A stretch of 55,361 bases of DNA from NCBI RefSeq assembly GCF_008710285.1, contig NZ_VYQF01000016.1:1-55361 (forward strand), written 5' to 3'. The translations under genes and the position numbers were made by a program. This document shows positions 11,226-38,271 of the stretch, in pieces (positions within the stretch are counted from its first letter, which is position 1; the number at the start of each line of letters is the position of its first letter). Origin of the DNA: Ginsengibacter hankyongi (lineage in GTDB: Bacteria; Bacteroidota; Bacteroidia; Chitinophagales; Chitinophagaceae). Under the pieces are notes generated by a model. The model searched no databases, was not told the DNA's origin, and worked only from the letters and a program-made list of their open reading frames with translations.

Positions 11226-11957
11226 TCAAATTGCATTGAGAATTTCGGCGATATGTATCACCCGTATATCACTTTTTTTTCTTCTCAAGATACCTTCCAG
11301 GTGCATCAGGCAACTTACGTCTGTGGAGGTGATATATTCTACCTGGTTTTCTTTATGTTCCCTAATTCTATCTTTTCCCATTTTTACAGAAACGGCTTCT
11401 TCAAAAACAGAAAATGTACCCCCAAACCCGCAACATTCATCCCATCGTTCGGGCAACATCATTTGTAAATTCTTTACCATGCTTAATAGTTTCTCCGGCT
11501 TTGAAAAAGGGGAAGCGACCAGTTCTGACATAGAGCAGACGTGCAATCCCCGTTGGCCGTGACAACCAACATGTACGCCAACCTTATGGGGAAAATTTGA
11601 TGGCAGCTTTTCAACTTTTAATACATCGAGCAAAAACTCGGTTAGTTCAAAAACATGCCTGCGAATATGCAGGGCAGCGTCTTCATTTTCATCCGTCAAG
11701 TGTTCTTTAATATGCAGTACGCAACTTCCGGAGGGCGATACTACGTAGTCGAAATTGGAGAAGTTTTCTACGAAGTTTTTATTGCACCCTTTTGCTAAAC
11801 CGGCAAAGCCACTATTGGCCATCGGCTGGCCACAACACGTTTGGTTTAAAGGAAAAATTACTTCACAATTAAGACGCTCTAATAACTCCACGGTGGCAAC
11901 GGCTACCCTGGGATAAAACTGATCAATATAACATGGAACAAATAAACCCACTTTCAT
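11226..11957 (-). CDS. lutA: LutA-like CCG-domain oxidoreductase subunit (L-lactate utilisation)
   Basis: This 243-residue protein carries two cysteine-rich CCG domains, as in LutA/GlpC/heterodisulfide reductase subunits. The first CCG is at residues 41-43 (NQTCCGQPMANSGF) and the second at 175-177 (DECCGFGGTFS). These Cys sets bind an Fe-S cluster used for electron transfer during L-lactate oxidation. The start lies only 2 bases past the pps stop, so pps and lutA are almost certainly co-transcribed. The length is normal for LutA. Confidence 0.95.
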   Translation of the reverse strand: MKVGLFVPCYIDQFYPRVAVATVELLERLNCEVIFPLNQTCCGQPMANSGFAGLAKGCNKNFVENFSNFDYVVSPSGSCVLHIKEHLTDENEDAALHIRRHVFELTEFLLDVLKVEKLPSNFPHKVGVHVGCHGQRGLHVCSMSELVASPFSKPEKLLSMVKNLQMMLPERWDECCGFGGTFSVFEEAVSVKMGKDRIREHKENQVEYITSTDVSCLMHLEGILRRKKSDIRVIHIAEILNAI

Positions 11958-11959
11958 AA

Positions 11960-14380
11960 TTACTGTTCAAAAGTTGCAATAGCTTTAATGGTTTTTATCA
12001 CGGAATCGGGGGTCAGTGAAATACTATCGATGCCCTCCCGTACAAGAAACTGCGCAAAATCCGGAAAATCAGAAGGTCCTTGTCCGCAAATACCCACTTT
12101 AACCCCATTTCTTTTGGCGGCACAAATGAGTTTGGAAATCATTTGTTTTACGGCAGGGTTTCGCTCATTGTATAAATGAGCCACCAATGATGAATCCCGG
12201 TCAAGACCAAGCGTTAATTGCGTTAAGTCATTTGAACCTATTGAAAATCCATCGATATGTTTGGCAAATTCATCGGCCAAAATAATATTTGAAGGCACTT
12301 CTGCCATCAAGTAAAGCTCCAGATTATTTTTACCTCGTTCCAACCCAAACTCTCTCATCACTTCCTTTACTTTTATTAATTCCTCAACGGTACGGCAGAA
12401 GGGTATCATCACGACTACATTATCCAATCCCATTTCTTCCCGAACTATCTTTATTGCTTTACACTCAAGCCCAAAAGCTGCTTTATATTCATCAGAATAA
12501 TATCTTGAAGCGCCTCTCCAGCCAATCATAGGGTTTTCTTCATGCGGCTCAAAATGATTTCCGCCCAAAAGATTATAATATTCATTAGTCTTGAAATCGC
12601 TGAAACGCACAATAACAGGATTTGGATAAAAAGCAGCACCAATCTTAGCAATCCCGTATGACAACTTTTTGATAAAGAAATCTTCTTCATTATCATAGCC
12701 GAATATTCGTTTTTCTATTTCTTTTGTTAATAAAGAATCATTTAATTCTTTATGATGCATTAACGCAAGCGGATGGATCTGAATATAATTATTAATGATG
12801 AATTCTTCTCGTGCGAGCCCCACACCACAATTAGGCAAATGTGAAAACTTGAAACACATCGAAGGTGATGCTACATTCAGCATAATCTTTGTATCGATTA
12901 CCGGCAAATTATCAAGATTATATTCTGTGGTTAAATAATCAATTATCCCTTCATAGATATAGCCTGTTTCTCCTTCGGCGCAGCTCGCCGTAACCTCATC
13001 ACCTTCCTGCAAAATTTTGGTAGCATTGCCACAGCCAACAATGGCCGGAACTCCCAGCTCTCTTGCTACGATAGCAGCATGGCAGGTACGGCCACCTTTA
13101 TTTGTAATGATCGCTGAAGCTTTTTTCATAATTGGCTCCCAGTCCGGGTCTGTCATATCAGTAACTAATATATCGCCATCATTAAACTCATGCCCTTCTA
13201 TTACCCGTTTATCTAAAGAATATAAAATATTGGCTTTGCCCGAGCCAATTTTATCGCCAACCGCTATGCCTGTCAGTAATATTTTTTGCTCTTTTGGATT
13301 TTTCCTGATTTCATATTCTGTTATTTTTCTATGATTGGTCTGTGAATGAATAGTTTCTGGTCTTGCCTGAACAATGAAAAGTTCTTTGCTCAACCCGTCG
13401 AAGGCCCATTCTACATCCATGGGCGTCCATCGGTTTTTGATTTTTGTATAATATTCTTCGATCTTTACGATCCAGTCTGAAAGCTGAATTACTGTCGCAT
13501 CCGATAAACAAAACCGGTTTTGAAAACCTGTCTCTGTCGGAATAATTTTAACTCTTTCATCCGCTTTATCACCATATACCATCATTTTATCTTTTACCCC
13601 TAGCTTTTTCTCAATGATAGAATTGTACCCGTCCTTCAGGGTGGGTTTGAACACAATAAATTCATCGGGCAATATGGCCCCCTGAACTACCATTTCTCCC
13701 AATCCGAAAGATCCATTGATAATGACAACATCTTTAAAGCCGCTCTCCGTGTCGAGGCTAAATGCGACTCCGGACGACCCCAAATCACTTCTTACCATTT
13801 TCTGCACGCAAACACTTAATCCGATGGAAAAATGATCGTACCCGAAACTTTGCCGGTAGCTGATGGCACGATCCGTAAACAGCGAGGCGATACAATTGCG
13901 AACGGCATCCATGAGAGACGCGGGGCCACGAACATTCAGGAAAGTCTCCTGTTGCCCGGCAAATGAAGCGTCAGGCAAATCCTCAGCAGTGGCTGAAGAT
14001 CGTACTGCAACATCCGTAAATTCCTGGTTATAATCTGAAGATAGTTTTTCATAGGCCTTTATGATCACCTCGCTCATTTCTTTTGGGAAACGGCCGTTTT
14101 CGAGTAAAAGCCTTACCTGCTGACCTCCTCTCCTGAGTGATTCAATATTATCGTAATCTATTGAATTTATGATGTGAGTGATGGTGCTTTCCAGATTATT
14201 ATATTCCAGAAATTTCCTATAGGCTGCAACGGTAACAACAAAACCATTCGGAATATTAATTCCCAAAGAAGCCAGGTGCTGCATCATCTCACCCAATGAA
14301 GCATTTTTACCCCCGACCGTTTCAACATCATTAATGCCTACCTCGTTAAGTTCCAAAATAAATTTATCCTTCATAACCAT
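11960..14380 (-). CDS. ppsA: Phosphoenolpyruvate synthase
   Basis: This 806-residue enzyme turns pyruvate, ATP and water into PEP, AMP and phosphate, the entry to gluconeogenesis. The N-terminal ATP-grasp PPDK/PEP-synthase domain spans about 1-345 (VGGKNASLGEM, VRSSATAEDLPDASFAGQQE). The swivelling phosphohistidine domain has the GGRTCHAAIVARELGVPA motif with His434. The C-terminal TIM barrel ends with VGICGQGPSDFPDF, carrying the catalytic Cys, and the usual SLTPDSV tail. It is the first gene of pps-lutABC, so pyruvate made from lactate is pulled to PEP. Translation may start at Met1 or Met3. Confidence 0.96.
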   Translation of the reverse strand: MVMKDKFILELNEVGINDVETVGGKNASLGEMMQHLASLGINIPNGFVVTVAAYRKFLEYNNLESTITHIINSIDYDNIESLRRGGQQVRLLLENGRFPKEMSEVIIKAYEKLSSDYNQEFTDVAVRSSATAEDLPDASFAGQQETFLNVRGPASLMDAVRNCIASLFTDRAISYRQSFGYDHFSIGLSVCVQKMVRSDLGSSGVAFSLDTESGFKDVVIINGSFGLGEMVVQGAILPDEFIVFKPTLKDGYNSIIEKKLGVKDKMMVYGDKADERVKIIPTETGFQNRFCLSDATVIQLSDWIVKIEEYYTKIKNRWTPMDVEWAFDGLSKELFIVQARPETIHSQTNHRKITEYEIRKNPKEQKILLTGIAVGDKIGSGKANILYSLDKRVIEGHEFNDGDILVTDMTDPDWEPIMKKASAIITNKGGRTCHAAIVARELGVPAIVGCGNATKILQEGDEVTASCAEGETGYIYEGIIDYLTTEYNLDNLPVIDTKIMLNVASPSMCFKFSHLPNCGVGLAREEFIINNYIQIHPLALMHHKELNDSLLTKEIEKRIFGYDNEEDFFIKKLSYGIAKIGAAFYPNPVIVRFSDFKTNEYYNLLGGNHFEPHEENPMIGWRGASRYYSDEYKAAFGLECKAIKIVREEMGLDNVVVMIPFCRTVEELIKVKEVMREFGLERGKNNLELYLMAEVPSNIILADEFAKHIDGFSIGSNDLTQLTLGLDRDSSLVAHLYNERNPAVKQMISKLICAAKRNGVKVGICGQGPSDFPDFAQFLVREGIDSISLTPDSVIKTIKAIATFEQ

Positions 14381-16543: not shown

Positions 16544-17854
16544 TTAACTTACGATCGTCATTTCCCTGCTGACCTGCTTAGAAATCGATCTTCCAAGTTT
16601 ATACCCCTTCACGGAGAAAAATAAGAGGAAAATATAACAGGGCACCAAAATCCAGTAAGCCTGACGGGGATTATAATAATCACTCAAATATCCATAAACT
16701 AAGGGAGTGATTGCGCCTCCCACGACACCCATGATCATCAAAGCCGATCCCCGTTTCGTGAATTTCCCCAAACCCTCTATTGCGAGGGGCCAGATAGATG
16801 GCCATAGTAACGCGTTACTCAGGCCTAACAATGCTATGAACCAAACCGATGTTTTGCCTGCAATGAATATGGCGGTTAAGGATAGGATAAGACCTAATAA
16901 GGAAGACCATTGCAAAGCTTTTTTTTGTTTAATATATTTTGGGATTGCAATAGCGCCCGCGATATAACTAATAATCATGATCAACAGAATATACGTTGCA
17001 AAGAATTTAGCCTCCTTAAAACTATAGCCCATATATTCACTATAGTTAATAATGGAATCGACCGCTAATACCTCTACGCTCACTTCAAAAAAGATAGCTA
17101 TAGCCCCCAAAACAAGGAAGGGGTACTGAAACACGTGCCGTTTCTGCACCGCTTCTTCCCCGGTAAATGCCTCCTCCTGCTCTTTCACTTCCGGAAGCTT
17201 TGAATAACGGATCATCAGTCCAAGGCCCACCAAAACTATAGTCATAATCACGTAGGGCATTATCAGGCGCGAGGATAATTCATTCAGGATTCCCAGTTGC
17301 TCAGTGTGTTTTAATGAGGGCAGTAATTTTTTTAACTGGTCGATTTCATCCGGGTTTTTTGTTATAGCGCGAATAAGAATAAGGGGCGCTAATGCTCCTG
17401 CAGCCTTATTACAAATTCCCATGATGCTAATCCGTTTGGCGGCACTTTCAATCGGGCCCAGGATAGTGATGTACGGATTCACTGCTGTCTGTAGAATGGT
17501 AAGGCCCGTCGCCTGGACAAACAATCCCAATAAAAATGTAATATAATTGCGACCCAGTGCGGCCGGTATGAAGATGATGGTGCCTGCGGCCATCACCAGC
17601 AAGCCCAGCGTCATCCCATTTTTAAACCCTGTTTTTTTCAGCAGCGCAGACGAGGGAATTGCCATTACAAAGTAAGAAAAATAGAAGGAAAAAGCAACCA
17701 TCATCGATTGCCAGGTAGCGAGGTTGCAAACAAATTTAAAATAAGGTATGAGCAAAGAATTAAGCCAGCTTACAAACCCAAAAATGAAAAAAAGCAATCC
17801 AATAATGGCGATGGCTCCATAATTTTTTTTGTCCTTGTAATTTGCTTTTCCCAT
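16544..17854 (-). CDS. FHS-family MFS sugar permease (FucP/GluP-like)
   Basis: This 436-residue inner-membrane symporter has about 12 predicted helices and belongs to the fucose-galactose-glucose FHS family. That is supported by LLFFIFGFVSWLNSLLIPYF (TM1), GLTILQTAVNPYITILGP (TM4-5 signature) and KRISIMGICNKAAGALAPL. From memory of the E. coli FucP structure, its Asp46 (in LND) and Glu135 (in LETAANPF) are needed for proton-coupled fucose transport; here the equivalents read LNS and LQT. So the protein may use another sugar or another coupling mode. Its place next to a GH29 fucosidase still suggests it carries a released monosaccharide. The gap of about 170 bases to the next gene upstream suggests loose co-transcription. 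Confidence 0.9.
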   Translation of the reverse strand: MGKANYKDKKNYGAIAIIGLLFFIFGFVSWLNSLLIPYFKFVCNLATWQSMMVAFSFYFSYFVMAIPSSALLKKTGFKNGMTLGLLVMAAGTIIFIPAALGRNYITFLLGLFVQATGLTILQTAVNPYITILGPIESAAKRISIMGICNKAAGALAPLILIRAITKNPDEIDQLKKLLPSLKHTEQLGILNELSSRLIMPYVIMTIVLVGLGLMIRYSKLPEVKEQEEAFTGEEAVQKRHVFQYPFLVLGAIAIFFEVSVEVLAVDSIINYSEYMGYSFKEAKFFATYILLIMIISYIAGAIAIPKYIKQKKALQWSSLLGLILSLTAIFIAGKTSVWFIALLGLSNALLWPSIWPLAIEGLGKFTKRGSALMIMGVVGGAITPLVYGYLSDYYNPRQAYWILVPCYIFLLFFSVKGYKLGRSISKQVSREMTIVS

Positions 17855-18027: not shown

Positions 18028-19293
18028 CTAGAAATAATCGCTAAACGGCCGTTGTTCAACTATGGCAGTTAGTCCCATCATCGGTCCCGCTATCCCGGCC
18101 AGGAATCCCATCGCTCCGCCTGCGCCCTTTGAATCGATCCACTCGGGAAATGCCAGTTTTTCAACGTTAGCTACCAATTCTTTCGCAATTTCAACGGCAA
18201 ATTCGATATCCTGGTGAGCAATAGCCGGCAAAACCCAACCGGTACCTATGGACCAAAATCCACCGTTGGTATAACTGCCTAATGGAACATTTACCAATTG
18301 TCGCTGCCAACCGTCCTTTTCAGCAATCTGTCGGGTGAAGCCTTTTAAAAAAATGTCATCGCGGTGCTTACGGTACCAGTCTACTATGCTTTTTTGTTCA
18401 GCGGGCTCTACCATCCAATATGCTAATCCATTTCCCCAAACATTTACCTGCCTGCAATCTTTTGATCCGGCGAGGAAGGCTCCTTCCTCTTTGTCAAAGA
18501 GTCGGTATAGATTTTCGGGGATACCCTTTGCCAGGCGTGTCCAGCGTGTGGTAACGTCCTTGTCAATACAATTGTCAAAAAAACGGGCTGCCCGCGTCAG
18601 ACCAAAATGAAGTATCATACTGCTCATCAATACAAAACCTGTGATCGCTTCAGGATCATGAAACCCAAAATCTACTCCCGGGTGCTGGGGATCAATATAA
18701 GCCAACCCGCAGGAAAAGGGTACCAACTCCATGCTTCGTTCAAAAATCCTGGCCCAGTCTTCCTTCCTGGGAATTTCAGCCCCCCATTTTTCAAGATGAT
18801 CGATAAGCCTGATCCAGGCCGCAGGAAGATGCAGCGGCATGTGTATCGCATGGGGGCTATTCAAACTTCCGGGCTGCATTACGGGCATCCCGTCTGCTTC
18901 TACCCTGTCGGGGAAGCAAGGCAAATCAACAATACTTTCTGTAAGAAAACGGGCAATGGCGGTAAGCTCTTCCTTGTTATAAAGATCCGGTTGCACCATC
19001 ATGGGATACAAAAAATCATCTGGCCATATTCCCCGGTAGGTAGCACTCACGGATGGGGAATGCAATTTAAGAGAACTGCCAAAGACAATCTTTGAACGTG
19101 TCAGGGACTCAAGAAGACTTTCTCTTAATCGTTCAAGCAACTTTCGAAAGATGTCATTGTTAGATTTATACCCTTCTGATCCTGTTCCGGATCCTGGAAT
19201 TAAATCGATTGGAGCTATGCTCAAAACGGCTCCCGCCTTCCCCGTAAGAGCCAGGAACTTCCTCCGGCTTAATCTTATTTTTTTTCCGGCCAT
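18028..19293 (-). CDS. Tat-exported putative (alpha/alpha)6-barrel glycosidase
   Basis: This 421-residue protein starts with a twin-arginine signal (RLSRRKFLALTGKAG, Arg pair at residues 10-11) and so is probably exported folded. The body is rich in Trp and acidic residues in an alpha-toroid style (TYRGIWPDDFLYPMM, QVNVWGNGLAYWMV, GFWSIGTGWVLPAIA), like six-hairpin glycosidases. I could not place it in a named GH family. The ATG at 19291-19293 is preferred to a GTG two codons upstream. It lies 39 bases after a GH123-like gene, with a near-perfect 22-nt palindrome in the gap, and upstream of the permease. A role in trimming the same glycan is inferred from context only. Confidence 0.7.
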   Translation of the reverse strand: MAGKKIRLSRRKFLALTGKAGAVLSIAPIDLIPGSGTGSEGYKSNNDIFRKLLERLRESLLESLTRSKIVFGSSLKLHSPSVSATYRGIWPDDFLYPMMVQPDLYNKEELTAIARFLTESIVDLPCFPDRVEADGMPVMQPGSLNSPHAIHMPLHLPAAWIRLIDHLEKWGAEIPRKEDWARIFERSMELVPFSCGLAYIDPQHPGVDFGFHDPEAITGFVLMSSMILHFGLTRAARFFDNCIDKDVTTRWTRLAKGIPENLYRLFDKEEGAFLAGSKDCRQVNVWGNGLAYWMVEPAEQKSIVDWYRKHRDDIFLKGFTRQIAEKDGWQRQLVNVPLGSYTNGGFWSIGTGWVLPAIAHQDIEFAVEIAKELVANVEKLAFPEWIDSKGAGGAMGFLAGIAGPMMGLTAIVEQRPFSDYF

Positions 19294-19307
19294 ACTCACT
19301 TATTACG

Positions 19308-19332: not shown

Positions 19333-22300
19333 TCAATCGGCTACTTTTTTTTGAATAATGATAATCCCTCCTTTGCCCGCCGGAACCACGACGTCATCCA
19401 GGTTATTGTAAAAATGCGCTTCCTGAAAATCACGAATGGAAGGAGCCCGAATGCCCACTTGTGTTGCATTCAGGTTTACCGATTTCCAGTTAATATCGAG
19501 CTTGATATGAATATCCTGCGTGGCCCAACTGGCATAGGCGATTAATATCTTATCCGACCGCCGATATACTGTTACTTTAACCTCTTTACTATTGCATTTA
19601 ACGGGCAGAAATGGATCCCAGTAACCTATCATTTTTGCCTTTTTAATTCCGAATTGATCCCACAGTTGCCAAAGGGCAGAAGGATCGCATCCTCCCCAAC
19701 CCAGCCGGGAGGTGACGCCATATACCATACCACGCCAGGCATTGCCACAGCCGTTAAGCATTTCGCCATACAACCCGAATGGAATGCCCGACATTTCCAC
19801 CAACCAGTAATCGGGGTTTTCATTATAATTGAACATTTCACCCAGCCAAAGACTATTAATACACGGAAACAATTCCATGTATTCATTGGCCGTACTGTTC
19901 AATCCGTATGCCGGCTGAAAATTATTACCGGAATGAAAATCGATCAGGCAACTATCTGCGGACCGGTCCAGTACCTTTCGAACCCTCTTCATGATCTCAC
20001 GGTCATATCCTACCCCATCCAGGTAAATGCCCCGTATACCCACGTTCTTTACCAGCCACCTAAGGCCTTCCAGGTAGTAATTATGCCACCTCGATAATCC
20101 TTGTGTCCGAATCGCCATATCCCATCCACCGCCTTGAACCGGGCTGTGCCAGGCCGCGTCATAATTCGTCCGCAAATGTTCCGTGAGCCATGACCCCCCG
20201 GTGGAATATAAATTACCCCCTGTTCCGTCGTCAGCAAACTGGTCAGCTAGCTGTGAACCCATGCCGGGAGTAAAAATTTCGTTGCCCAGGCTTCGTAACG
20301 CCCATAACTCCGGGGTGTGGTTACTCAATTCCCGTACGGTATAGTAAATTTTGCAGCGGATACCCTTTGACCGCGCCGCGGCAATAAAGTTTTTCAAAGT
20401 ATCAGTAGCTATAAAAGGATAGTTAATATACGGGTTCAGGATGTTTCCCTGGTGAATGTTCATAACATTCGCGCCTTTTTCAACTGCCTTCGTTAGCCAA
20501 TTATCTACGGGTGGGTCCGATTGAAAATACCGTTCGCTCCAGTGATTATTGTCCAGCAGTTTAAGCGGTGTAATCAAAAGGCCAAAATTAAGATGCAACA
20601 CCTGCCCGGCCCTAAGTACCTTTTTGCCTGTGAAGGCCTTGAATAAAAAACTATTTCCCTGCTCCGACAAACTGCAACCGCCTAATCCTTCATTGCTCCA
20701 GTCTTTATAAGTCCCTGTTTTATCAAAATTGTATAGGGTCCAATCCGGGAATTCATTCTTCAACTTGCACTGCAGGCCTGCATTTACGTCTCCAATCCAT
20801 ACCATGTTGTTGGCTCGTTCTTTATTCCATCGCCAGTCCCATCTTTCGGGTCGCAGCCCTCCTTTAAACCCCAACCCCATCATATAGGTAGCGACCGGTT
20901 TAGCATAAGGTATAAGCAATTGTATATCATCTACAGTCATAGCTTCCCGGGCTTTAAAATCTACCTGGTAGTTGATATACCCGTCACATTCCATTTTTGC
21001 CCTTATAATCATTTGGGCATCCGGTCTTTCTTCCGTAGTACGCCAGCTCACCGCACCTTCTTTTTTTTCAGTTATCTGTGGTCCACCTGATTTCCATTTT
21101 AGTTTTTCTCCATGCTGCAGGGTTACTAATTGTACCGGAGCCGCAATTATATCTCTTGGTATTCCGTTTATCGAATCATTGCTTCCGGTAAAATAGCTGG
21201 TTATTTTATCGGGCAATCCATATTTATTAAAACGAAGTGTGCGGCCCAATACTTTTACGATTTGCCGGTTTAACTCTACGGGAATGTATGGCTTAAAAAC
21301 GCTATCATCTAAACCAATATCAGAATCTAACCAATTCAGCCTGGCCATCCTGAAGAGTTCATCATACCCCCTGTCTGCAATTATTCCGTCTCCGACACTT
21401 ATATGGACATCTATCAGCCGTGCTCCAATTCCATGGGCCAAAACGGTTACCGTTCCTGTATATAGCCCGGGACTTACATCTTTCATAATATCGACACCGA
21501 TCCACAGCGCCTGTACATGGCCCTTTTTTATATCGACTTCTTTTGTAAAGGCTTTACCCAGCCAGTCTCTCCCTTGCAGGTTGATACACCGTATAGAAGA
21601 AGCAGGTATTTTTTGGCCGGTTTTTTCCGTAAGGTCTGAAAAAACCAATCGCACGTTTTTTAGTGCTTTAAAAGCTGCGAATATCCCTAATTGATATACA
21701 TAAAACTCGTTTCTTAAAGCGCTTCCGGAGAAGGCCTGGCTTTCGTTTTCCACTGCCCAACGTTCAGGAATATGCGTGTCCATCCGTATTGGATGCTTAC
21801 GGTCTTCGGGAAATATTAAAAACTCCTTGTTAGAATTTTGATCCAAAAATGACCGCACTGTTTTTTTTGTTGCCACGATCTCCATGGGATCGAAACTATT
21901 GAAGGTATTTATAGATTCAAATCGAACTACCCTGGCTTTAGGCAAACGCCCCGTATCAGGCAAAGTCAGCACATTATTCTTTTTCTCCCATGTAACATCA
22001 CAATGATCCACATAACCCGGGTATATTGTATTGGGGAAGTACCAGCTTCCGCTCGTCCTGTAGGGCATAAAGTACAGGTAGTAGTCGCCCTTGCCTGTAG
22101 CCGGTTGAAAGATAAAATCGCCAGATTCTGTATTGACGTTAACTCTGTAAATATTTTCCACGGTTTTGCCGGTAGAAGCATCCACAAGAATGACAGACTT
22201 CTTCTCCGGATTATCTTCCCTCCGCCAGGGCACATGAACCCATACGGCATCTGAATCAACCGGGACCTCTATTACAGCCCGGTGATTACCATATTCTTTA

Positions 22301-22416
22301 TTATCCCATTTCCCGGTGCCATAGCAGATCTCCTGCGCAAATACGGCTCTTTTTCCCAAGAGAAAGAAGACCAAAATAAACAAGCCGGCAGCTCTCAGAT
22401 TTTTTTTATTGCACAT
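19333..22416 (-). CDS. GH123-like (DUF6067-type) exported glycoside hydrolase
   Basis: This 1027-residue exported protein has a signal peptide (about 1-27, ending AVFA) and an extra N-terminal beta domain of about 150 residues. A large region follows that is shared end to end with the 875-aa protein at 32606. Common blocks include GLRPERWDWRWNKE, IYLDGVGYDREIMKRVRKVL, YWLVEMSGIPFGLYGEML and NAWRGMVYGVTSRLGWGG. These are typical of Bacteroidota proteins annotated as glycoside hydrolase domain-containing, related to GH123 beta-N-acetylgalactosaminidases. The acidic motifs YLDGVGYD and DFHSG may be active-site residues. The substrate is unknown. It sits between the Tat glycosidase and the creatininase-family cassette. 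Confidence 0.78.
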   Translation of the reverse strand: MCNKKNLRAAGLFILVFFLLGKRAVFAQEICYGTGKWDNKEYGNHRAVIEVPVDSDAVWVHVPWRREDNPEKKSVILVDASTGKTVENIYRVNVNTESGDFIFQPATGKGDYYLYFMPYRTSGSWYFPNTIYPGYVDHCDVTWEKKNNVLTLPDTGRLPKARVVRFESINTFNSFDPMEIVATKKTVRSFLDQNSNKEFLIFPEDRKHPIRMDTHIPERWAVENESQAFSGSALRNEFYVYQLGIFAAFKALKNVRLVFSDLTEKTGQKIPASSIRCINLQGRDWLGKAFTKEVDIKKGHVQALWIGVDIMKDVSPGLYTGTVTVLAHGIGARLIDVHISVGDGIIADRGYDELFRMARLNWLDSDIGLDDSVFKPYIPVELNRQIVKVLGRTLRFNKYGLPDKITSYFTGSNDSINGIPRDIIAAPVQLVTLQHGEKLKWKSGGPQITEKKEGAVSWRTTEERPDAQMIIRAKMECDGYINYQVDFKAREAMTVDDIQLLIPYAKPVATYMMGLGFKGGLRPERWDWRWNKERANNMVWIGDVNAGLQCKLKNEFPDWTLYNFDKTGTYKDWSNEGLGGCSLSEQGNSFLFKAFTGKKVLRAGQVLHLNFGLLITPLKLLDNNHWSERYFQSDPPVDNWLTKAVEKGANVMNIHQGNILNPYINYPFIATDTLKNFIAAARSKGIRCKIYYTVRELSNHTPELWALRSLGNEIFTPGMGSQLADQFADDGTGGNLYSTGGSWLTEHLRTNYDAAWHSPVQGGGWDMAIRTQGLSRWHNYYLEGLRWLVKNVGIRGIYLDGVGYDREIMKRVRKVLDRSADSCLIDFHSGNNFQPAYGLNSTANEYMELFPCINSLWLGEMFNYNENPDYWLVEMSGIPFGLYGEMLNGCGNAWRGMVYGVTSRLGWGGCDPSALWQLWDQFGIKKAKMIGYWDPFLPVKCNSKEVKVTVYRRSDKILIAYASWATQDIHIKLDINWKSVNLNATQVGIRAPSIRDFQEAHFYNNLDDVVVPAGKGGIIIIQKKVAD

Positions 22417-22507: not shown

Positions 22508-23275
22508 CTATGGTTTTTCTTTAATTGCAAAAAGATCAGTGACCACCATTTGCAGGGCATTCACAACAGCATTTGTAATTTGTATCCCCTTCCCGACGTC
22601 AGCTTTCAGAGGATTTCCAAAAATTCCATTGGAAGTCATCGTTTTAAAGTTGCGGTAATAGGAAGCCTTCGGGCCCTTTAACATGTCTCCCTCTGCCCAT
22701 GGGAAGCCGGCTTTGTTTCCACCTTTTTCCAGTTGCTCCCTGGCCACCAGGTGAGGAGCAATGACTTCCATAAGTGACGTTTCAAATTCGCATGCATGCC
22801 CGGTACCTCCCGGGCCGGTCTCGCTGATTTTTTTCAGGGCTTCCTGAACTATCAGCCACCACGTTACGCCTACGATATGCGCTTTTGGATTTTCCTGGCC
22901 GAGCTGTTCCAATATCACCTGTCCTATTCCCTGGTTGCCACCATGGCTATTGAACAGAATTATTTTATAAAATCCATGATGCAAAACTGAGCCTATGATA
23001 TCCTTTACTACCATCCCAAAGGCGGCATGGCTCAAACTTAGGGTACCCGGAAATCCTAGGTGATGGCCGGAGCATCCGATGCCAACCGTGGGTAGTATCA
23101 ATATCGAATCTCCGATGGCAGCGTTTAGCGCCGCGGCAAAATGGTCCCCGATTAACCGGTCGGTTGCCAGTGGCAAATGAGGCCCGTGCTGCTCTGTAGC
23201 GGCAAGAGTCAATAGCACCGGAATATTTCTATCCAGCCTGTCTAATTGCAGATAGCTGAGTTGATCCCAAATCAT
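22508..23275 (-). CDS. Creatininase-family metal-dependent amidohydrolase
   Basis: This 255-residue cytosolic protein of the creatininase fold hydrolyses cyclic amides or related ring bonds with a two-metal site. The ligand motifs are intact: TEQHGPHLPLATD (Glu28, His30, Asp39), NSHGGNQG (His111) and HACEFETS (Glu163, Glu165). The family includes creatininase, FAPy deformylase, MftE and, as I recall, an inosose ring-opening hydrolase (IolN), so creatinine need not be the substrate. It is the last gene of the RraA-SDR-enolase-RidA cassette, 45 bases after the RidA fusion. A ring-opening or lactam/lactone hydrolysis step on a sugar-derived compound is a reasonable guess. Confidence 0.88.
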   Translation of the reverse strand: MIWDQLSYLQLDRLDRNIPVLLTLAATEQHGPHLPLATDRLIGDHFAAALNAAIGDSILILPTVGIGCSGHHLGFPGTLSLSHAAFGMVVKDIIGSVLHHGFYKIILFNSHGGNQGIGQVILEQLGQENPKAHIVGVTWWLIVQEALKKISETGPGGTGHACEFETSLMEVIAPHLVAREQLEKGGNKAGFPWAEGDMLKGPKASYYRNFKTMTSNGIFGNPLKADVGKGIQITNAVVNALQMVVTDLFAIKEKP

Positions 23276-23320
23276 AGTACATGCTTTTAACGAGAGGGTA
23301 GTTGATCAATGCAATGGATG

Positions 23321-24202
23321 TTACAATACCGCCCAGCATTCCACTTCTACCAATAAGGTGCTCAGCAACCCGGCCTGCACCGCAGTTCTTACTGGCATGA
23401 TGGCTTCCCGGAAATATTCTATATATACTTTGTTAAACCTCCCCCAGTCTTCTATGTTTTTCAGGTAGACGGTTACCTTAAAGACCTTATCCATACTGCA
23501 GCCAGCAACAGCCAATTGCCTCCTGCAATTTTCCAGCGTGAAAGCCGCCTGCTCTTCGATAGTGTCTCCGATGATCTTTCCTTCCATATCAATCGCTGCC
23601 TGCCCGGAAATCACTACCAGTTTACCGGGGTTGATCATAAGAACAGGTGAATAAGGACCCGAAGTTTTGTGTTGTGCAGCATTGGCCGGCACCTCTATAG
23701 GGGCTGGCCTCCGGTCCTCAAATGTGCTGCCTATGAAGTTGGGAAGATAACCGGTAAACCCGGCAATTTTCCATGACCCGTTAACCCGGCGGCAATGGTA
23801 TATGCTTTGCCAGTTAGCTGGAACCCTCTCCCCCTCCAGCTTCTGGGAGTCCCATATGAATTTCTTATGTGCCAAAGCGACATCTCCTTTAATCTCTATA
23901 TCGCGGAGAATTGTTGCCCGGTGCAGTAAATTTTCCGCATTATCGTTGCCAATAGCTTCCCTGAAGGCCGATGCTTGCCTAAGCCATTCCGCTTTATAAG
24001 AACGGAGATCACAAAAAGCCAGCGTCCACGCGTCAGGGTTATACGTGCGGTTACCATCTATTGCCATAAACCCTTCCTTTATAAAATCACCCTCTGTTAA
24101 AGACCAGTCTTCACTAACGAACGCACGGATGTCTTTTGTTACCAGGATTTCCCAGATCGCTGCCCTGTCTTTATCTGTTGCGGCAAATGGATTTATTGTC
24201 AT
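23321..24202 (-). CDS. NTF2-like (SnoaL) domain fused to RidA/YjgF domain
   Basis: This 293-residue protein has two parts. Residues 1 to about 165 look like an NTF2/SnoaL-type cone domain (ending YHCRRVNGSWKIAGFTGYLP). Residues about 180-293 are a RidA/YjgF domain (GPYSPVLMINPGKLVVISGQ, VFKVTVYLKNIEDWGRFNKV, MPVRTAVQAGL, LVEVECWAVL). The Arg of PVRTAV and the Glu of VEVE match RidA residues that bind and hydrolyse 2-aminoacrylate-type imines, so the domain is probably active. It lies 1 base past the enolase-superfamily stop, so it is tightly coupled. Clearing or processing a reactive keto/imine intermediate in the same pathway is inferred. Free-standing RidA is about 125 aa. Confidence 0.87.
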   Translation of the reverse strand: MTINPFAATDKDRAAIWEILVTKDIRAFVSEDWSLTEGDFIKEGFMAIDGNRTYNPDAWTLAFCDLRSYKAEWLRQASAFREAIGNDNAENLLHRATILRDIEIKGDVALAHKKFIWDSQKLEGERVPANWQSIYHCRRVNGSWKIAGFTGYLPNFIGSTFEDRRPAPIEVPANAAQHKTSGPYSPVLMINPGKLVVISGQAAIDMEGKIIGDTIEEQAAFTLENCRRQLAVAGCSMDKVFKVTVYLKNIEDWGRFNKVYIEYFREAIMPVRTAVQAGLLSTLLVEVECWAVL

Positions 24203-24203
24203 A

Positions 24204-25334
24204 TCAGTAGTATTCTATTTTATTTATTTGGTAATGTGCAATGGCGTCGAGGTCCGGCTCTACCCCCAGGCCCGGCCCTTCCGGCAGGTATACAAACGGA
24301 GGCTCGAAACGAAGTGGCGTTTGAAGCAAGTCATGCTCCCGGATCATGCGTCCAAAAATGTCCCCCGGCCACGTGCAAGACGATGCAGCAGCAGAACTAT
24401 GAATATACATGGCTTCCAGTATACCAAGATCGATTTCTGAACCATGCCAGCAAGGTAACCCGGCTGCAGCAGCAATGTGATCCATCCGCTGGAAGTCGGC
24501 AAGCCCCGAGTTAAAATTAAATCCGTCGACAGCTTGCAACTGAATTGCGCGAATTGCATCCTGAATTCTCTGGCCCTGGAGGACATAAGGAAGCGAAACA
24601 TGTAATACGATGGGTATAGAACTGTAAGTCCGCAACGCGGCGTATTCACTGATCTTCCAGCGCGGTATCGGATCTTCGAGACACAAAACGTTCCCGGGTT
24701 CCCGCAGGGCATCTATCCTTTTTCGAGTCTCAAAAGCATACTCCCATCGTTCATTGGGATCGAGGATGACCTGCATACCGGGGGCCGCATCCGCAATAGC
24801 TTTACACCACCCTACCACATCGTCTTCGAGATCACTTTTAAACTTGATACAATCATATCCCATTTCCTGAAAATACCGAACCAACGGCCCGACTTCTTCG
24901 GTCACTCTGTGGCTTGACCAGGCTCCCACTTTCACTTTCTCCCTCAGGGCCCCGCCCAGGAGGTCCACCACCCGCATGTTCCGCATCCTTGCATATGCAT
25001 CCCATATAGCACATTCAAAACCATCGTACTCCCTGCAAAAAACAAACGGCAGTCTTTGAAGTACAAGACTTTCGATATCGCGATCAACCAGGATCCGGGC
25101 TATTTCGGCTACCATAGCCAGGCTGTGGCCCCTGTAAAGTTCCCCCCAACCCATGATGCCCGAGTCCAGCTGCAGTCCGATCAGCATTTTCGGCAATTCA
25201 TCGAATTGAAAACTCCATCCCTCTTTGGCACCTACCGGGAGTTTATGCAGTGGCTTGCTTACCTGCATGCTATCTATAGAGCCCTCCCTGGCCGGCACAA
25301 TTACTTCAAAGCAGGAAATCCTTACAACTTTCAT
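24204..25334 (-). CDS. Enolase-superfamily (mandelate racemase/MLE-like) enzyme
   Basis: This 376-residue enzyme has the usual capping domain (1-120) and TIM barrel. It has the KxK catalytic pair Lys164-Phe-Lys166 (CIKFKSD), metal ligands Asp192 (ILDPNERW) and Glu220 (CLEDPIP), and a C-terminal His297 (CWHGSEIDLGI). The third ligand, normally Asp/Glu in a PIAxxE-like motif, falls in SIPIVLHVSLPY, where no acid is present. Members dehydrate or epimerise sugar acids via an enolate, so it may be a dehydratase or epimerase, but the exact chemistry is open. It starts 8 bases past the SDR stop (ATG at 25332-25334) and is followed after 1 base by the NTF2-RidA gene. At 376 aa it is shorter than the enolase-family L-fuconate dehydratase (about 440 aa), so it was not named FucD. 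Confidence 0.88.
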   Translation of the reverse strand: MKVVRISCFEVIVPAREGSIDSMQVSKPLHKLPVGAKEGWSFQFDELPKMLIGLQLDSGIMGWGELYRGHSLAMVAEIARILVDRDIESLVLQRLPFVFCREYDGFECAIWDAYARMRNMRVVDLLGGALREKVKVGAWSSHRVTEEVGPLVRYFQEMGYDCIKFKSDLEDDVVGWCKAIADAAPGMQVILDPNERWEYAFETRKRIDALREPGNVLCLEDPIPRWKISEYAALRTYSSIPIVLHVSLPYVLQGQRIQDAIRAIQLQAVDGFNFNSGLADFQRMDHIAAAAGLPCWHGSEIDLGILEAMYIHSSAAASSCTWPGDIFGRMIREHDLLQTPLRFEPPFVYLPEGPGLGVEPDLDAIAHYQINKIEYY

Positions 25335-25342
25335 ATGCGTAG

Positions 25343-26119
25343 TTAAACTGAGCCTAATAGTTTAATGGTAGTACCGCAATCGATATAAATGGTTTGCCCT
25401 GTGATACAGCGGCTATGATCTGAGAGCAGGAAGCCTACAGCATAACCACAATCTTCTGCTTGTATTTTACGATGGATCACCTGTTCCTTGAAGATATATT
25501 CTTCCACCCACTGTTCAGGGTTTTCCGTCCAGGATCTGATTAACTCATAATTTTGTTCGGCGTGTACATACCCGGGAGCTATTGCATTTACACGGATGTT
25601 CTTCCCGCCTAATTCTACCGCCATTCCCCGGGTGAGGCCTTCCACTGCAGATTTTGCACTGGCATAGATCGCATAGCCGGGAATCGTTGAATGCGCATGT
25701 ACAGAGGACACATTTACAATGTTTCCTGCAAGCCCGTTTTTTAAAAGCTGGTTTACAAATAATTTGGACACCATCCAAACGCCCCTTACGTCCACACCGT
25801 AAAGTTGATCGAATTCCTGCTGATTCGCCTCGTGGGCAGGTTTACTCAATCCAATACCGGCATTATTTACCAGTCCGTCCAGTACGCCATATTCTTTTTC
25901 TACAAATGCAAACATATCTTCCACTTCTGTGGGATTACCGATGTCAGCAACAACCGTAAACGCTTTTACATGTTTCTTCCCCGCTGCGTCGGCCATCTCC
26001 CGGTTTCGCTCGTTTATTACTACACGGGCGCCGCTTGCAATTAATACATTGCATATCCCTTCGCCCACGCCAAAACCACCTCCGCCCGTCACCAGGATAT
26101 TTTTTCCTTTCAGGTCCAT
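25343..26119 (-). CDS. SDR-family dehydrogenase (cassette member)
   Basis: This 258-residue classical short-chain dehydrogenase has a Rossmann motif TGGGGFGVGEG (11-21), NNAG at 85-88, catalytic Ser139 (NVSSVHAH), Tyr152 and Lys156 (YASAK), and APGYVHAEQ. It oxidises or reduces an alcohol with NAD(P). It ends 8 bases before the enolase-superfamily gene and starts 34 bases after the RraA-like gene, so it is part of the same cassette. The most likely substrate is a sugar acid, lactone or keto intermediate of that route. Confidence 0.93.
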   Translation of the reverse strand: MDLKGKNILVTGGGGFGVGEGICNVLIASGARVVINERNREMADAAGKKHVKAFTVVADIGNPTEVEDMFAFVEKEYGVLDGLVNNAGIGLSKPAHEANQQEFDQLYGVDVRGVWMVSKLFVNQLLKNGLAGNIVNVSSVHAHSTIPGYAIYASAKSAVEGLTRGMAVELGGKNIRVNAIAPGYVHAEQNYELIRSWTENPEQWVEEYIFKEQVIHRKIQAEDCGYAVGFLLSDHSRCITGQTIYIDCGTTIKLLGSV

Positions 26120-26153
26120 ATTCTAATATATTTATATTGGCGCAATGCGCCCT

Positions 26154-26879
26154 TTACATGATACCATAAGTTTCAAAAGCCTGTTTTGCACTCATCCCTT
26201 CCTGGATCTTTATTTGAACTATTTTTTCTCCTCTCGCCTTTTCGATCGCTAGATTAAATACTTCTTTTACGGCACCGACGGGAACAATACATACCCCATC
26301 CATATCCCCGATAACTATATCTCCGGGATTTATTAAAACATCTCCCATCTTAATAGCGACGCGAAAATCAACCACCTTCCCGCGTGGGGCCTGATCCTGC
26401 GCATAGTTCCCATAAGAAAAAGTAGGGAAGTCTAGCTTTATGATTCCATTATAATCGCGTGAATAGCCATTTACAACGGCGCCCGCTGCACCAAGCATTT
26501 TAGCCCGGGTAGACATCAGCTCACCCCATAATGCGTATGATGGTGACGCGCCGGTACAGATATATACTTCACCTGGGCTTAAATCATCGAGGGCTTGGAG
26601 CATAAGGCCGAATTGCATTTTTACTTCCTGGCCTCTCTTATCCGGTTGATTTACACTGATATCTTCTTCCAGCACAGTCATAGCCCTTCCTGCAAGTAGC
26701 ATGTTCGATTGCAGGGGCTGTATCTGGGGCGGGAGGAATTGATGAAGTAAACCCAGTTTATCCATAACATCGCCAACGACCGCTGTGTACAATTCTTTCC
26801 GTACTATACCAAATAATTCTTGGTCAGTTTTCCATAAAGATTTCCTTACCAGTTTCACCTTTCCGCCTGTTTTTTTCAT
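26154..26879 (-). CDS. RraA-like family protein (HMG/CHA aldolase-like)
   Basis: This 241-residue RraA-fold protein has the family's GELMSTRAKMLGAAGAVVNG stretch followed by YSRD (conserved Arg-Asp pair) and the later VLINPGDIVIGDMDGVCIVP. Divalent-metal members act as 4-hydroxy-4-methyl-2-oxoglutarate aldolase and oxaloacetate decarboxylase; others only regulate RNase E. In a catabolic cassette with a dehydratase-type enolase, an aldolase or lyase that yields pyruvate is more likely than RNase control. It is the first gene of the minus-strand unit, divergent from the AraC gene at 27138, with two 18-bp direct repeats in the shared promoter region. Confidence 0.88.
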   Translation of the reverse strand: MKKTGGKVKLVRKSLWKTDQELFGIVRKELYTAVVGDVMDKLGLLHQFLPPQIQPLQSNMLLAGRAMTVLEEDISVNQPDKRGQEVKMQFGLMLQALDDLSPGEVYICTGASPSYALWGELMSTRAKMLGAAGAVVNGYSRDYNGIIKLDFPTFSYGNYAQDQAPRGKVVDFRVAIKMGDVLINPGDIVIGDMDGVCIVPVGAVKEVFNLAIEKARGEKIVQIKIQEGMSAKQAFETYGIM

Positions 26880-26960
26880 ATCGTCAATTTTACCCTCATT
26901 TAATTTGCTGGTAAAAATATTTTAAATATACCTCAACCATTCCAATGCATTTACCGAATC

Positions 26961-26978
26961 CTTAAGGTATTTTAACAT
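26961..26978 (+). promoter_or_regulatory. Direct repeat copy 1, likely operator
   Basis: CTTAAGGTATTTTAACAT is an exact 18-bp match to 27064-27081, 103 bases away in the same orientation, in the divergent region between the RraA-like gene and AraC. Paired direct repeats are the usual AraC binding arrangement; the regulator encoded at 27138 is the obvious candidate. Confidence 0.5.
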
Positions 26979-27063
26979 ACCACATTTTTTGATAATCCAA
27001 ATATTTTCACAATTATATGCGGCAAATTAGCAGACGAAAAATCTTATCTTGATTTACCTATTT

Positions 27064-27081
27064 CTTAAGGTATTTTAACAT
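27064..27081 (+). promoter_or_regulatory. Direct repeat copy 2, likely operator
   Basis: This is the second exact copy of CTTAAGGTATTTTAACAT, ending 56 bases before the AraC start. Its core GTATTTTAAC is also present at 8078-8087, about 110 bases before the other AraC gene, which hints at shared or auto-regulation. Confidence 0.5.
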
Positions 27082-27137
27082 CATACGTACTTTAACAATA
27101 AATATGTGTTAATTTAGTTTTAGAAAATAATGTCTCG

Positions 27138-28013
27138 ATGAAACCGCAGTTAATTGATATCCCGCTTGAGAATAAAACTACCATCCGGATAAAAAAGGTA
27201 GACCAGTTTCATCTCAACAGCCCCTTTCATTTTCACCAGTTATGCGAATTAGTATGGATTGAAAAAGGATCTGGCAAAAGACTTATTGGTGATCGTGTCG
27301 AAAGTTTCTCGGATGGAGATTTGGTACTAATGAGCCCTAACGTACCTCATATTTGGCAGAACGAGGTGGCGGTTTCCGGGAGGAAGGAAAAATGCAAAAC
27401 AAAAGCCACTGTCGTATATTTTCCACAGGACTTTTTATTAAAACTTTCCGATGAGCCTGCGGTCACACAGCCTGTAGAGCATCTAATTCACAAGGCTTCC
27501 AGGGGAATCAGGTTTTTCGGGGACACACATGAAAGCGTCACCCGGATTCTTTCCCAAATTTCGCCGGAAGATGGATTAAAAAAGATTCTTTCCTTCCTTA
27601 CTGTCGCAGATATTTTATCGGGATCAAAAGAATATGAATATATAGCGAGCGTAGCATATAGAAATTGCAATGATGAGAAGGATATTACGCGCTTCAATGA
27701 TGTCTACCAGTTCTTAATGCAAAATTTCCGCCGGCAGATTACACTGGAGGAGGTGGCTGCCATTTGTCATATGGCACCCACAGCTTTTTGCCGTTATTTC
27801 AAAAGCCGGACAGGAAAAACCTTTACCGGTTTCCTGAATGAAATAAGAATTGGCCATGCTTGTAAATTATTGCAGAACAAGAATAATTCTGTGGCCGATA
27901 GTTGTTATAATAGTGGATATAATAACCTGACCAGCTTTAATAAGCTCTTCAAACTGATCAATAAAAAAACGCCCTCCAATTACAGGAAGTATTACAAGGA
28001 GTTGGAAGTATAA
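27138..28013 (+). CDS. AraC-family regulator with N-terminal cupin sensor (second copy)
   Basis: This 291-residue paralogue of the regulator at 8198 starts MKPQLI. It has the cupin sensor (FHFHQLCELVWIEKGSGKRL, DGDLVLMSPNVPHIW) and a C-terminal AraC domain (LEEVAAICHMAPTAFCRYFK, SCYNSGYNNLTSFNKLFK, KKTPSNYRKY). It lies between the minus-strand RraA cassette and the plus-strand GH29 gene, so it probably controls both and may bind the repeats at 26961 and 27064. The start is the ATG at 27138; an earlier ATG at 27130 is closed by a stop after two codons. Confidence 0.93.
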   Translation: MKPQLIDIPLENKTTIRIKKVDQFHLNSPFHFHQLCELVWIEKGSGKRLIGDRVESFSDGDLVLMSPNVPHIWQNEVAVSGRKEKCKTKATVVYFPQDFLLKLSDEPAVTQPVEHLIHKASRGIRFFGDTHESVTRILSQISPEDGLKKILSFLTVADILSGSKEYEYIASVAYRNCNDEKDITRFNDVYQFLMQNFRRQITLEEVAAICHMAPTAFCRYFKSRTGKTFTGFLNEIRIGHACKLLQNKNNSVADSCYNSGYNNLTSFNKLFKLINKKTPSNYRKYYKELEV

Positions 28014-37048: not shown

Positions 37049-38263
37049 TTATAGGTTCGCTTCATCCAGTGATACCCCTAATAATCGTTTTGCGACTTCA
37101 TTTAATTCGTTCTTCTTCCCCTGGAAATGAAAGATGTACTGGGTATGGGTCAGGGATTGGTTTTTCCGCAGGGCAATTGCCGGCGAGGAAGTTTCCATTT
37201 CGTAAAAAGTACCCAGCTGGCTGCCCAAGTCATTAGGCCCGTCATTATAAGAATTAACCACATCTCCTTTGTAAGGAAATTGCTGGTGTTCCCAGGTGGA
37301 GTTAACATAATCACTGTCGCCATTATAATCAAATTTAATGATTGTCAGCACGTTTCCCGACGCATCGTAATCACCTAAAAGTTGTTTAACTATGGAAGGA
37401 GGAACACCGATCTTGCTCCTGTATTTTGCATCTGTTTTAAAAAATAAAAAGCTGTCTTTTTTAACAAGCCTTTCTGCCGGAACTTTTCCAAAATAAGTGC
37501 TGTTTATTTTTGAGGCGCCGCCGTTCCTGAAAGGAATCATTACCGTGTTTTGCGGGGATGCCTTTAACATACTGGACAACCAAATAGAAAGCACACCCTG
37601 TGGTTTAAGCCAGGCGTTTTTGCCGGCATTGGTAATCGTGTTTATTGTTTGATAGCCTACCCAGCTGACGCCTGGTATCGGGGTATGCAATACGGCTACC
37701 GCTTCACTGGCAGACAGTAGCTTAATCCGGCGGTCTACTCTCACCCGGAACATAGTTCCCGCATAATTTTCAAGGTCAAATGACCGGGTAAAGGAGGCGG
37801 TCGTGGAATCTTTTTTTACCAGTTCAAAACCAGCCGTATCAATAATTGCAGGGGTCTGCCAATGCTTCAAATCAAAAGGATCTCCTGGTTTGAAGAACAA
37901 AGCATATTGCCCACCTTCTGGTCCCATCCAGAAACGTTCTTCACCGCCGTAGGCGTTAATATGCGGCATATATTTCCCGGAATTTATTAAGGCGTAGTTA
38001 ATCCATCCAAAGCTATAGCCCGTATCTCCCCCACAAGTGCTGGTCATCACGCGGGCCTGGTAGCCGGGCGCAATCAATACCTTTGAATTTCCATTCGTCA
38101 ATTCTACCATTGCCTGGTGCTTCTCCAGAAAATGCCGATCGTCCCCGTATGCATTGCCTGCACTGTCGCGGCCTGATATTTCATGCGGCTGTTTTACAAT
38201 CTTTGAATGGCAGGAAGAGATTATAAGAAAAGCAATCAATAACAAGCCTGTGTTTTTTTTCAT
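37049..38263 (-). CDS. DUF6786-type lipoprotein
   Basis: This protein of about 404 residues has a lipoprotein signal (MKKNTGLLLIAFLIISSC, lipidated Cys18). The rest is a beta-rich, mutarotase-like fold (FSFGWINYALINSG-like and EERFWMGPEGGQYALFFKP) that I associate with Bacteroidota DUF6786. No enzyme activity is assigned. An alternative ATG at 38275 overlaps the upstream CobW stop (ATGA at 38272-38275), which would couple translation, but it adds a hydrophobic IYF before the basic n-region, so the ATG at 38263 gives the better signal peptide. Confidence 0.75.
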   Translation of the reverse strand: MKKNTGLLLIAFLIISSCHSKIVKQPHEISGRDSAGNAYGDDRHFLEKHQAMVELTNGNSKVLIAPGYQARVMTSTCGGDTGYSFGWINYALINSGKYMPHINAYGGEERFWMGPEGGQYALFFKPGDPFDLKHWQTPAIIDTAGFELVKKDSTTASFTRSFDLENYAGTMFRVRVDRRIKLLSASEAVAVLHTPIPGVSWVGYQTINTITNAGKNAWLKPQGVLSIWLSSMLKASPQNTVMIPFRNGGASKINSTYFGKVPAERLVKKDSFLFFKTDAKYRSKIGVPPSIVKQLLGDYDASGNVLTIIKFDYNGDSDYVNSTWEHQQFPYKGDVVNSYNDGPNDLGSQLGTFYEMETSSPAIALRKNQSLTHTQYIFHFQGKKNELNEVAKRLLGVSLDEANL

Positions 38264-38271
38264 AAAATATA

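Follow-up and report, generated by a model that had tools for sequence, protein, structure and literature searches.

A conserved RraA–SDR–enolase–RidA–creatininase gene cassette with an unusual enolase, tentatively linked to amino-sugar-acid catabolism

The window analysed here is a 55,361-nucleotide (nt) stretch of DNA from Ginsengibacter hankyongi that makes up the whole of contig NZ_VYQF01000016.1, one of 33 in a 5.5 Mb genome. Its minus strand carries a cassette of five open reading frames (ORFs) encoding, in order of transcription, an RraA-family protein (26154–26879; PF03737, E 2.7e-33), a short-chain dehydrogenase (SDR; 25343–26119; PF13561, E 4e-56, also PF00106), a divergent enolase-superfamily enzyme (24204–25334; PF13378 (MR_MLE_C), E 1.1e-28), a RidA protein preceded by a conserved, fused N-terminal domain (23321–24202; PF01042 (Ribonuc_L-PSP), E 1.4e-26) and a creatininase-family metal hydrolase (22508–23275; PF02633, E 2.6e-58). 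All five Pfam matches exceed their cut-offs, and the N-terminal domain of the enolase (PF02746) falls slightly below its own. An earlier note on this DNA had described five tightly packed genes, and each ORF lies where it was placed, with intergenic gaps of 34, 8, 1 and 45 bases. Our comparison with related genomes shows that the cassette is a genuine unit shared by many of them and that its enolase is unusual.

A gene for an AraC-family regulator (27138–28013, plus strand; PF12833) diverges from the cassette. Between it and the RraA gene lie two copies of a 59-nt direct repeat (26949–27007 and 27052–27110), 103 bases apart and 73% identical, which are possible regulator sites; both the divergent gene and the paired repeats had been described before. 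The copies share an exact 18-mer that has no other exact occurrence in the 5.5 Mb genome. Scanning with a pattern of the repeat gave one further genomic site at two mismatches, and four matches in the window versus 1.3 expected. An attempt to define a genome-wide regulon was abandoned, as there was no further exact site and a reversed control pattern returned the same number of hits (3 versus 3).

One genome per GTDB species was scanned, yielding 110 relatives, and the analysis was carried out on the best 80 of these 110. Gene order was counted by tblastn with score thresholds of our own setting; the ORF caller missed some genes in GC-rich loci. The five genes occur in the same order and on the same strand in 28 of the 80 related loci, all 28 labelled Bacteroidota, with identities to the window of 62–75% for the enolase, 48–70% for the creatininase-family protein, 47–68% for the SDR and 55–71% for RraA. 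Order kept to this extent at 47–75% identity excludes chance, and it bears out the earlier note in treating the genes as one compact pathway cassette, an idea that an order confined to this strain would have refuted. The cultured relatives Longitalea luteola and Snuella sedimenti both have all five genes. A divergent group of loci, termed type B (L018–L022), was excluded from the count, and contig ends truncate many of the 52 loci that lack the complete order (for example L029, L040, L043, L053, L057, L060, L063 and L066). In L064 all five genes are present with RraA placed last. Four loci (L030, L062, L067 and L071) come from the same genomes as L014, L016, L017 and L015, respectively. Among the 28 intact loci, RidA carries the N-terminal domain in 26, the two others both belonging to Membranihabitans, and an AraC gene lies divergently and directly upstream of RraA in six. 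When the whole locus is counted on either strand, window-like RidA is found in 62 of the 80 loci (in one as the N-terminal domain alone) and a creatininase-family gene in 68, and both accompany the enolase also in loci without SDR and RraA.

Among 396 genomes of the order, a close enolase (63–70% identity) occurs in four besides the window's own, each with the identical five-gene order in different surroundings. An even draw of 395 genomes from the phylum contained the close form only in the window's own genome, so the cassette is rare but wide in its distribution. The type B enolase (35–38% identity) is found in five more loci, which come from four additional genomes, one of which holds two copies. 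Their cassette combines creatininase, RidA (three of five), 3HCDH, enolase, EamA, DHDPS, RraA (one of five), SDR and FAH (two of five) genes, with families assigned by Pfam on one or two members and by sequence cluster for the remainder, and is probably a related pathway with changed chemistry. Alphaproteobacteria and Microbulbifer have no window-type SDR or RraA; here the core consists of enolase, RidA and creatininase, or of enolase and creatininase. Going by names assigned by eye, in six of these loci a Dpp-like ABC transporter is followed by a small Rid-like protein of another type, and an RpiR-like regulator is often nearby, or else TRAP-like genes.

Members of the enolase superfamily share a barrel with a KxK motif on strand 2 and metal ligands on strands 3, 4 and 5. 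The AlphaFold2 model of the cassette enolase (mean pLDDT 93.2) has this fold, with K164 and K166, D192 and E220 in place, and with a histidine at the strand-5 position. In an alignment of 90 sequences from the window and 89 loci (86 distinct genes), K164, K166, D192, E220, H245, N275 and E300 are invariant; the third metal position, on strand 5, is thus His (H245) and the strand-6 residue Asn (N275) in all 90 rows. H297 is conserved as His in 85 rows, the five type B rows having Arg instead. Two smaller alignments were selected by hand, A3 with 43 rows from the enolases and A4 with 29 from the fused RidA proteins. The MLE/N-acylamino-acid racemase subgroup has Lys on strand 6 and Asp on strand 5, which N275 and H245 replace here in all 90 rows, and the mandelate racemase subgroup has a dyad of His (strand 7) and Asp (strand 6), of which the cassette enolases match the His in 85 of 90 rows and have Asn on strand 6; they fit neither subgroup.

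By Foldseek, the folds most like that of the model belong to N-acylamino-acid racemases and muconate cycloisomerases, with identities of about 20%. Of the first ten rows, six carry the name of an N-acyl or N-succinyl amino-acid racemase, and four of these six are entries for a single Deinococcus protein. These racemases, which act on N-acyl alpha-amino acids, are the best matches (1r0m, 2zc8 and 2p88), at 19–24% identity; in sequence alignments H245 stands opposite their strand-5 Asp, and opposite the Asp of a chloromuconate cycloisomerase, and their strand-6 Lys is Asn in the cassette enolase. The divergent galactarate dehydratase of Oceanobacillus iheyensis (2oqy, 3fyy and 3hpf; Foldseek ranks 16, 25 and 31) shares the fold at about 20% identity and is reported to have His as its third metal ligand; the cassette enolase differs in its strand-2 KxK and strand-6 Asn. 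A precedent for converting an alpha-amino-beta-hydroxy acid to an enamine within the superfamily is cis-3-hydroxy-L-proline dehydratase, to whose model (NF043002, cut-off 500) the cassette enolase scores 31.7 bits. It exceeds the cut-off of no curated dehydratase model. We propose that it is a (N-acetyl)hexosaminate dehydratase.

The RidA (YjgF/YER057c/UK114) imine deaminases have a catalytic Arg surrounded by Tyr, Asn and Glu. PF01042 is recognized in all 29 fused-RidA homologues, and R272, Y184, N257 and E286 are invariant in all 29, which places the cassette protein in this family as a putative enamine/imine hydrolase. The earlier note had called it an NTF2–RidA fusion. Its RidA half stands, and its NTF2 half has faint support: the conserved N-terminal domain of about 165 residues, modelled as alpha+beta, matches DUF4440 in 4 of 29 homologues (best E 0.0012) and SnoaL_3 in one, and Foldseek of the full model gave RidA proteins only among the 50 rows listed. 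In the creatininase-family protein, E28, H30, D39, H111, E163 and E165 are kept in at least 95% of 70 rows, as befits the PF02633 family, and its scores of 96.1 bits to creatininase proper (TIGR04448, cut-off 235) and 73.7 bits to the 3-dehydro-scyllo-inosose hydrolase IolN (NF041098, cut-off 245) place it outside both, its 108 bits to the MftE model being higher than either. We propose that it acts as a lactonase or de-N-acetylase. The SDR retains TGxxxGxG (T11-G12-G15-G17) and S139-Y152-K156 in at least 95% of 46 rows; the L-fucose dehydrogenase model NF052481 (cut-off 300) is absent from its best 25 models, the 25th of which scores 134.9 bits, and the protein is proposed to be a C1 (aldose) dehydrogenase, with its substrate suggested by context. 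RraA-type HMG/CHA aldolases carry an Arg–Asp pair 20 residues after an acidic residue. This motif is present in the window protein as E120, R141 and D142, and G138, R141 and D142 are kept in at least 95% of 39 rows. No listed curated aldolase model reached its cut-off, and the proposed role, a class II aldolase for a 2-keto-3-deoxy sugar acid, is read from context.

N-acetylhexosaminidase genes adjoin some of the related cassettes. We searched GH20 in 40 genomes (E 0.001) and GH109, GH89 and the control families GH78 (all 1e-20) and GH43 (1e-40) in 44; nearness was judged by eye from lists, and expected counts were computed from rounded genome sizes with 21.5 kb allotted to each genome. At a distance of up to 10 kb from the enolase lie at least 4 of 214 genome-wide GH20 copies (a lower bound; 0.81 expected), 4 of 75 GH109 copies (0.29 expected) and 2 of 21 GH89 copies (0.09 expected), and 0 of 129 GH78 and 0 of 66 GH43 copies. 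Together, at least 10 of 310 copies of the N-acetylhexosaminidase families versus 0 of 195 controls give a Fisher P of 0.008; such P values are descriptive, with families chosen post hoc, unequal E-value limits, related genomes and a tendency of glycosidase genes to cluster. The ten genes fall in at least 8 of the 44 genomes, and we regard their enrichment as a lead, not proof. In L033 the run GH20–GH109–RraA–SDR–enolase–RidA–creatininase–SSF has gaps of 17 and 15 bases ahead of RraA, and its GH109 protein matches 2ixa at E 3.8e-80. A GH20 gene lies directly upstream of the cassette in L014/L030 (one genome), and others lie near it in L026 and L037; GH89 genes lie near it in L037 and L047. A further GH109 gene is found just upstream in L058 and another in L046, and in the Sphingomonadaceae record L074 one immediately follows the enolase gene; a fifth lies 11.9 kb from the enolase in genome G417. 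Among neighbours of the GFO/IDH family, the tested members of cluster c23 are GH109 proteins, and members of c23 are also present in the type B loci L018 and L019; two other clusters, c15 and c88, were considered as GH109 and not borne out. In Pseudovibrio flavus, NagA and NanE-type genes (over cut-off) stand beside TRAP-like genes and adjoin an enolase–creatininase pair (L078:12445–15302). A CBM9-like small protein recurs near the cassette (L031:12847–13560 and ten other loci, 7 of the 11 labelled Saprospiraceae; PF06452 in one scanned member, L060).

Transporters also recur. In the window, a major facilitator superfamily (MFS) gene (16544–17854, minus strand) is the probable importer of an extended system; its product scores 355.6 bits to the NCBIfam NagP model (below the cut-off of 625) versus 191.3 to FucP. 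Relatives of it directly follow the creatininase gene in L068 (69% identical) and L024 (44%), and in L023 a 68% identical relative lies five genes further on. Members of an SSF symporter cluster are present in 17 of 89 loci, which stand for 16 genomes because L014 and L030 share one; in 12 of these loci the symporter gene comes immediately after the creatininase gene. Three of the 89 loci (L064, L088 and L100) have KDG-kinase-like genes close to the core (286–334 bits, cut-off 400), and L088 has Eda and a KDPGal-type aldolase, both over their cut-offs; these kinase-like genes and aldolases point to a 2-keto-3-deoxy sugar acid as product. In L088 (3888–21064), an Arcobacter record from a metagenome-assembled genome, Eda, KdgK-like, TRAP-like, enolase, RidA–creatininase, UxuA and KDPGal-type aldolase genes form an island.

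RidA hydrolyses imines, as established with 2-aminoacrylate, and this is the activity that a dehydratase forming an alpha-imino acid calls for. Since RidA so often accompanies the enolase, the substrate of the latter may be a 2-amino-3-hydroxy acid, and the presence of an amidohydrolase-type partner hints at an acyl amide or lactone; taken with the hexosaminidases adjoining some loci, these associations point to an N-acetylhexosamine (HexNAc) route. Our tentatively favoured reading, in which every function is predicted from sequence, is that the cassette serves oxidative, unphosphorylated HexNAc catabolism, of N-acetylgalactosamine (GalNAc) rather than N-acetylglucosamine (GlcNAc). The SDR would oxidize C1 to give a lactone, and the creatininase-family hydrolase would open the lactone and/or take off the acetyl group. 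The enolase would then abstract the C2 proton as the C3 hydroxyl leaves; the product would be a 2-amino-2-ene acid, homologous to 2-aminoacrylate but larger. RidA would accelerate hydrolysis of this enamine/imine to 2-keto-3-deoxyhexonate and ammonia, and the RraA-family aldolase would cleave the former into pyruvate and glyceraldehyde. In other lineages the first and last steps may fall to KDG-kinase-like, KDPG-aldolase and DHDPS-family proteins around a core of enolase, RidA and creatininase. Besides the associations above, this reading draws support from the conserved gene order, the invariant RidA arginine, the racemase names among the first Foldseek matches, the NagP-like transporters of the window and of some relatives, the KDG-kinase-like and KDPG-aldolase-type genes and a parallel with the oxidative chitin (ong) pathway of marine bacteria. 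The chemistry proposed in the earlier note survives as a likely set in its dehydrogenation, enolate, imine-clearance and C–C cleavage steps; what it overlooked is nitrogen, which we add because RidA and creatininase mostly accompany the enolase across phyla and hexosaminidases stand beside some cassettes. A broader version, which we hold more loosely, is that a pyridoxal phosphate-independent amino-sugar-acid route may extend across Bacteroidota, Alphaproteobacteria and others, with a new enolase subgroup (strand-5 His and strand-6 Asn) forming 2-aminoacrylate-like enamines, RidA as a dedicated pathway enzyme and a creatininase-family member for deacylation or lactone opening. If true, these proposals would provide a gene set for oxidative catabolism of GalNAc (or a related sugar) in Bacteroidota, a chemical role for RidA proteins in amino-sugar operons and a dehydratase type with an unusual metal site in the enolase superfamily.

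A PF19543 ('GH123_N') protein (19333–22416, minus strand; 1256 bits) is encoded 91 bases downstream of the creatininase gene and is possibly co-transcribed with the cassette. A search for a related solved structure gave a best E of 0.012, to an unrelated protein, and its candidacy as an N-acetylgalactosaminidase was dropped when phmmer found no solved GH123. Between this gene and that of the NagP-like transporter lies a 423-residue protein (18028–19299) that matches no Pfam family and whose N-terminus looks Tat-like by eye. The window also carries two GH29 fucosidase genes. At 50417–53660 lie an L-fucose dehydrogenase (50417–51205; NF052481, 403.8 bits, cut-off 300), a second SDR and a 549-residue UxaA/GarD-family dehydratase (52011–53660), likely an oxidative L-fucose route. 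A further group (9092–14380) comprises a LUD-domain gene, a LutB-type gene (438.1 bits, slightly under its cut-off of 444.8), a CCG-domain gene and a phosphoenolpyruvate (PEP) synthase gene (over cut-off), and would fit conversion of lactate to pyruvate and PEP, compatible with lactate from fucose. Within a glycosidase locus, a DUF6786 protein adjoins a CobW-type GTPase (37049–39369).

Several observations weigh against the HexNAc reading, some of them by favouring the alternatives discussed with them here. The window has no confident N-acetylhexosaminidase, the PF19543 protein being without a solved relative and the two GH29 genes suggesting fucose, and 36 of the 44 cassette genomes, four of which were not searched for GH20, have no GH20, GH109 or GH89 within 10 kb among the matches listed. 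The post hoc choice of families and the other limits set on the P values above count here too. NagB is over its cut-off in 40 of the 44 genomes (NagA in 26), so GlcNAc would usually have another outlet; that tips the balance towards GalNAc or a different amino-sugar acid, or else makes the reading as a whole weaker. Window-like RidA is missing from 18 of the 80 loci, some of them ending at contig ends, and the Arg in place of H297 in the type B loci, with their other enzymes, could mean a different chemistry. RidA can, moreover, serve as a general housekeeper. It would do so, merely clearing stray imines, if the cassette instead served the non-phosphorylative breakdown of a sugar or sugar acid that lacks nitrogen, such as a deoxy-sugar or uronate-derived acid, by a route in which the SDR is the dehydrogenase, the creatininase-type protein the lactonase, the enolase the dehydratase and RraA the aldolase. 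This enzyme logic equals that of the known fucose, rhamnose and pentose routes; uronate-type genes (UxaC, KduI and UxuA families) lie near the core in L075, L099 and L088, and sulfatase and other glycosidase families near some loci. We nevertheless consider a nitrogen-free substrate doubtful, given that RidA keeps company with the enolase in 62 of 80 loci, those without SDR and RraA included, and that N-acetylhexosaminidases are near it in at least 8 of 44 genomes and GH78 and GH43 in none.

L-fucose itself, oxidized by the cassette and supplied by the two fucosidases, with the lactate genes taking part, is suggested by the GH29, LutB-type and PEP synthase genes of the window, by L037, in which GH29, UxaA-family (28% identical to that of the window) and MFS (28%) genes lie near the cassette, and by a GH95 gene in L074. 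The window, however, has a separate L-fucose dehydrogenase beside the UxaA-family dehydratase, its MFS protein fits NagP better than FucP, and fucose offers RidA no nitrogen; L037 and L074 also contain GH89, GH20 or GH109, so fucose and HexNAc may share one source glycan. We therefore find this assignment quite improbable. A little less improbable, though still unlikely, is another amino-sugar acid, for example a 3-O-substituted (muramic-type) one or one from a 6-deoxy-2-acetamido sugar, from which the enolase would expel the C3 substituent. It agrees with the lactate-oxidation genes of the window and with alphaproteobacterial genes that, judged by eye, encode RpiR-like regulators and peptide-type ABC importers, but no LutB homologue is present among the listed neighbours of other cassettes, and GH109 and GH20 indicate plain HexNAc. 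Breakdown of an inosose or cyclic polyol, an idea raised in the earlier note, would make the creatininase-family protein an IolN-like C–C hydrolase. It belongs to IolN's Pfam family, several loci have GFO/IDH genes distantly related to inositol dehydrogenases (3cea, E 4.6e-12), and L099 has a KduI/IolB-family gene. Yet its IolN score lies far under the cut-off and below its own MftE score, the better GFO/IDH matches are to other dehydrogenases or GH109, the KduI/IolB relative in L075 is KduI (over the KduI cut-off), no inositol-specific gene was recognized among the scanned neighbours, and such a route is not known to need an enolase or RidA. The inosose idea thus fares worst and is very improbable.

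The HexNAc reading can be set beside two kinds of known system. The non-phosphorylative, Entner–Doudoroff-like routes for L-fucose and L-rhamnose follow the same sequence of SDR, lactonase, enolase-superfamily dehydratase and aldolase; to our knowledge they work without RidA or a creatininase-family member, and the cassette enolase scores below every curated dehydratase cut-off. The earlier note knew of no named pathway with this set, and our literature search, whose coverage largely left out subscription papers and preprints, likewise found no paper describing the five genes together; the parts consulted of PMC9007349 and PMC10444878 have no bearing on the cassette. The closer comparison is with the ong cluster of Pseudoalteromonas, for which the sections consulted of PMC9537276 describe a proven oxidative catabolism of chitin (GlcNAc1A), an essential RidA protein, OngD, whose role is there stated as unknown, and, as neighbours, an RpiR regulator, an SSS transporter and a beta-hexosaminidase. 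On that partial account, the two would share an amino-sugar aldonate intermediate and a 2-keto-3-deoxy sugar acid product, both proposed for the cassette, a RidA gene in the cluster and release of ammonia without phosphorylation of the amino sugar; some cassette relatives likewise have an RpiR-type regulator, an SSS/SSF transporter or a hexosaminidase nearby. Families like those of OngB and OngC are absent from the five cassette genes by Pfam, the rest of the genome not having been searched for them. Where ong, as described in those sections, relies on OngB, a deacetylase of the D-aminoacylase type, and OngC, an enzyme of the D-amino-acid-deaminase type, followed by KdgK, the cassette instead has a creatininase-family hydrolase, an enolase and RraA, together with an SDR that would be able to start from the free sugar.

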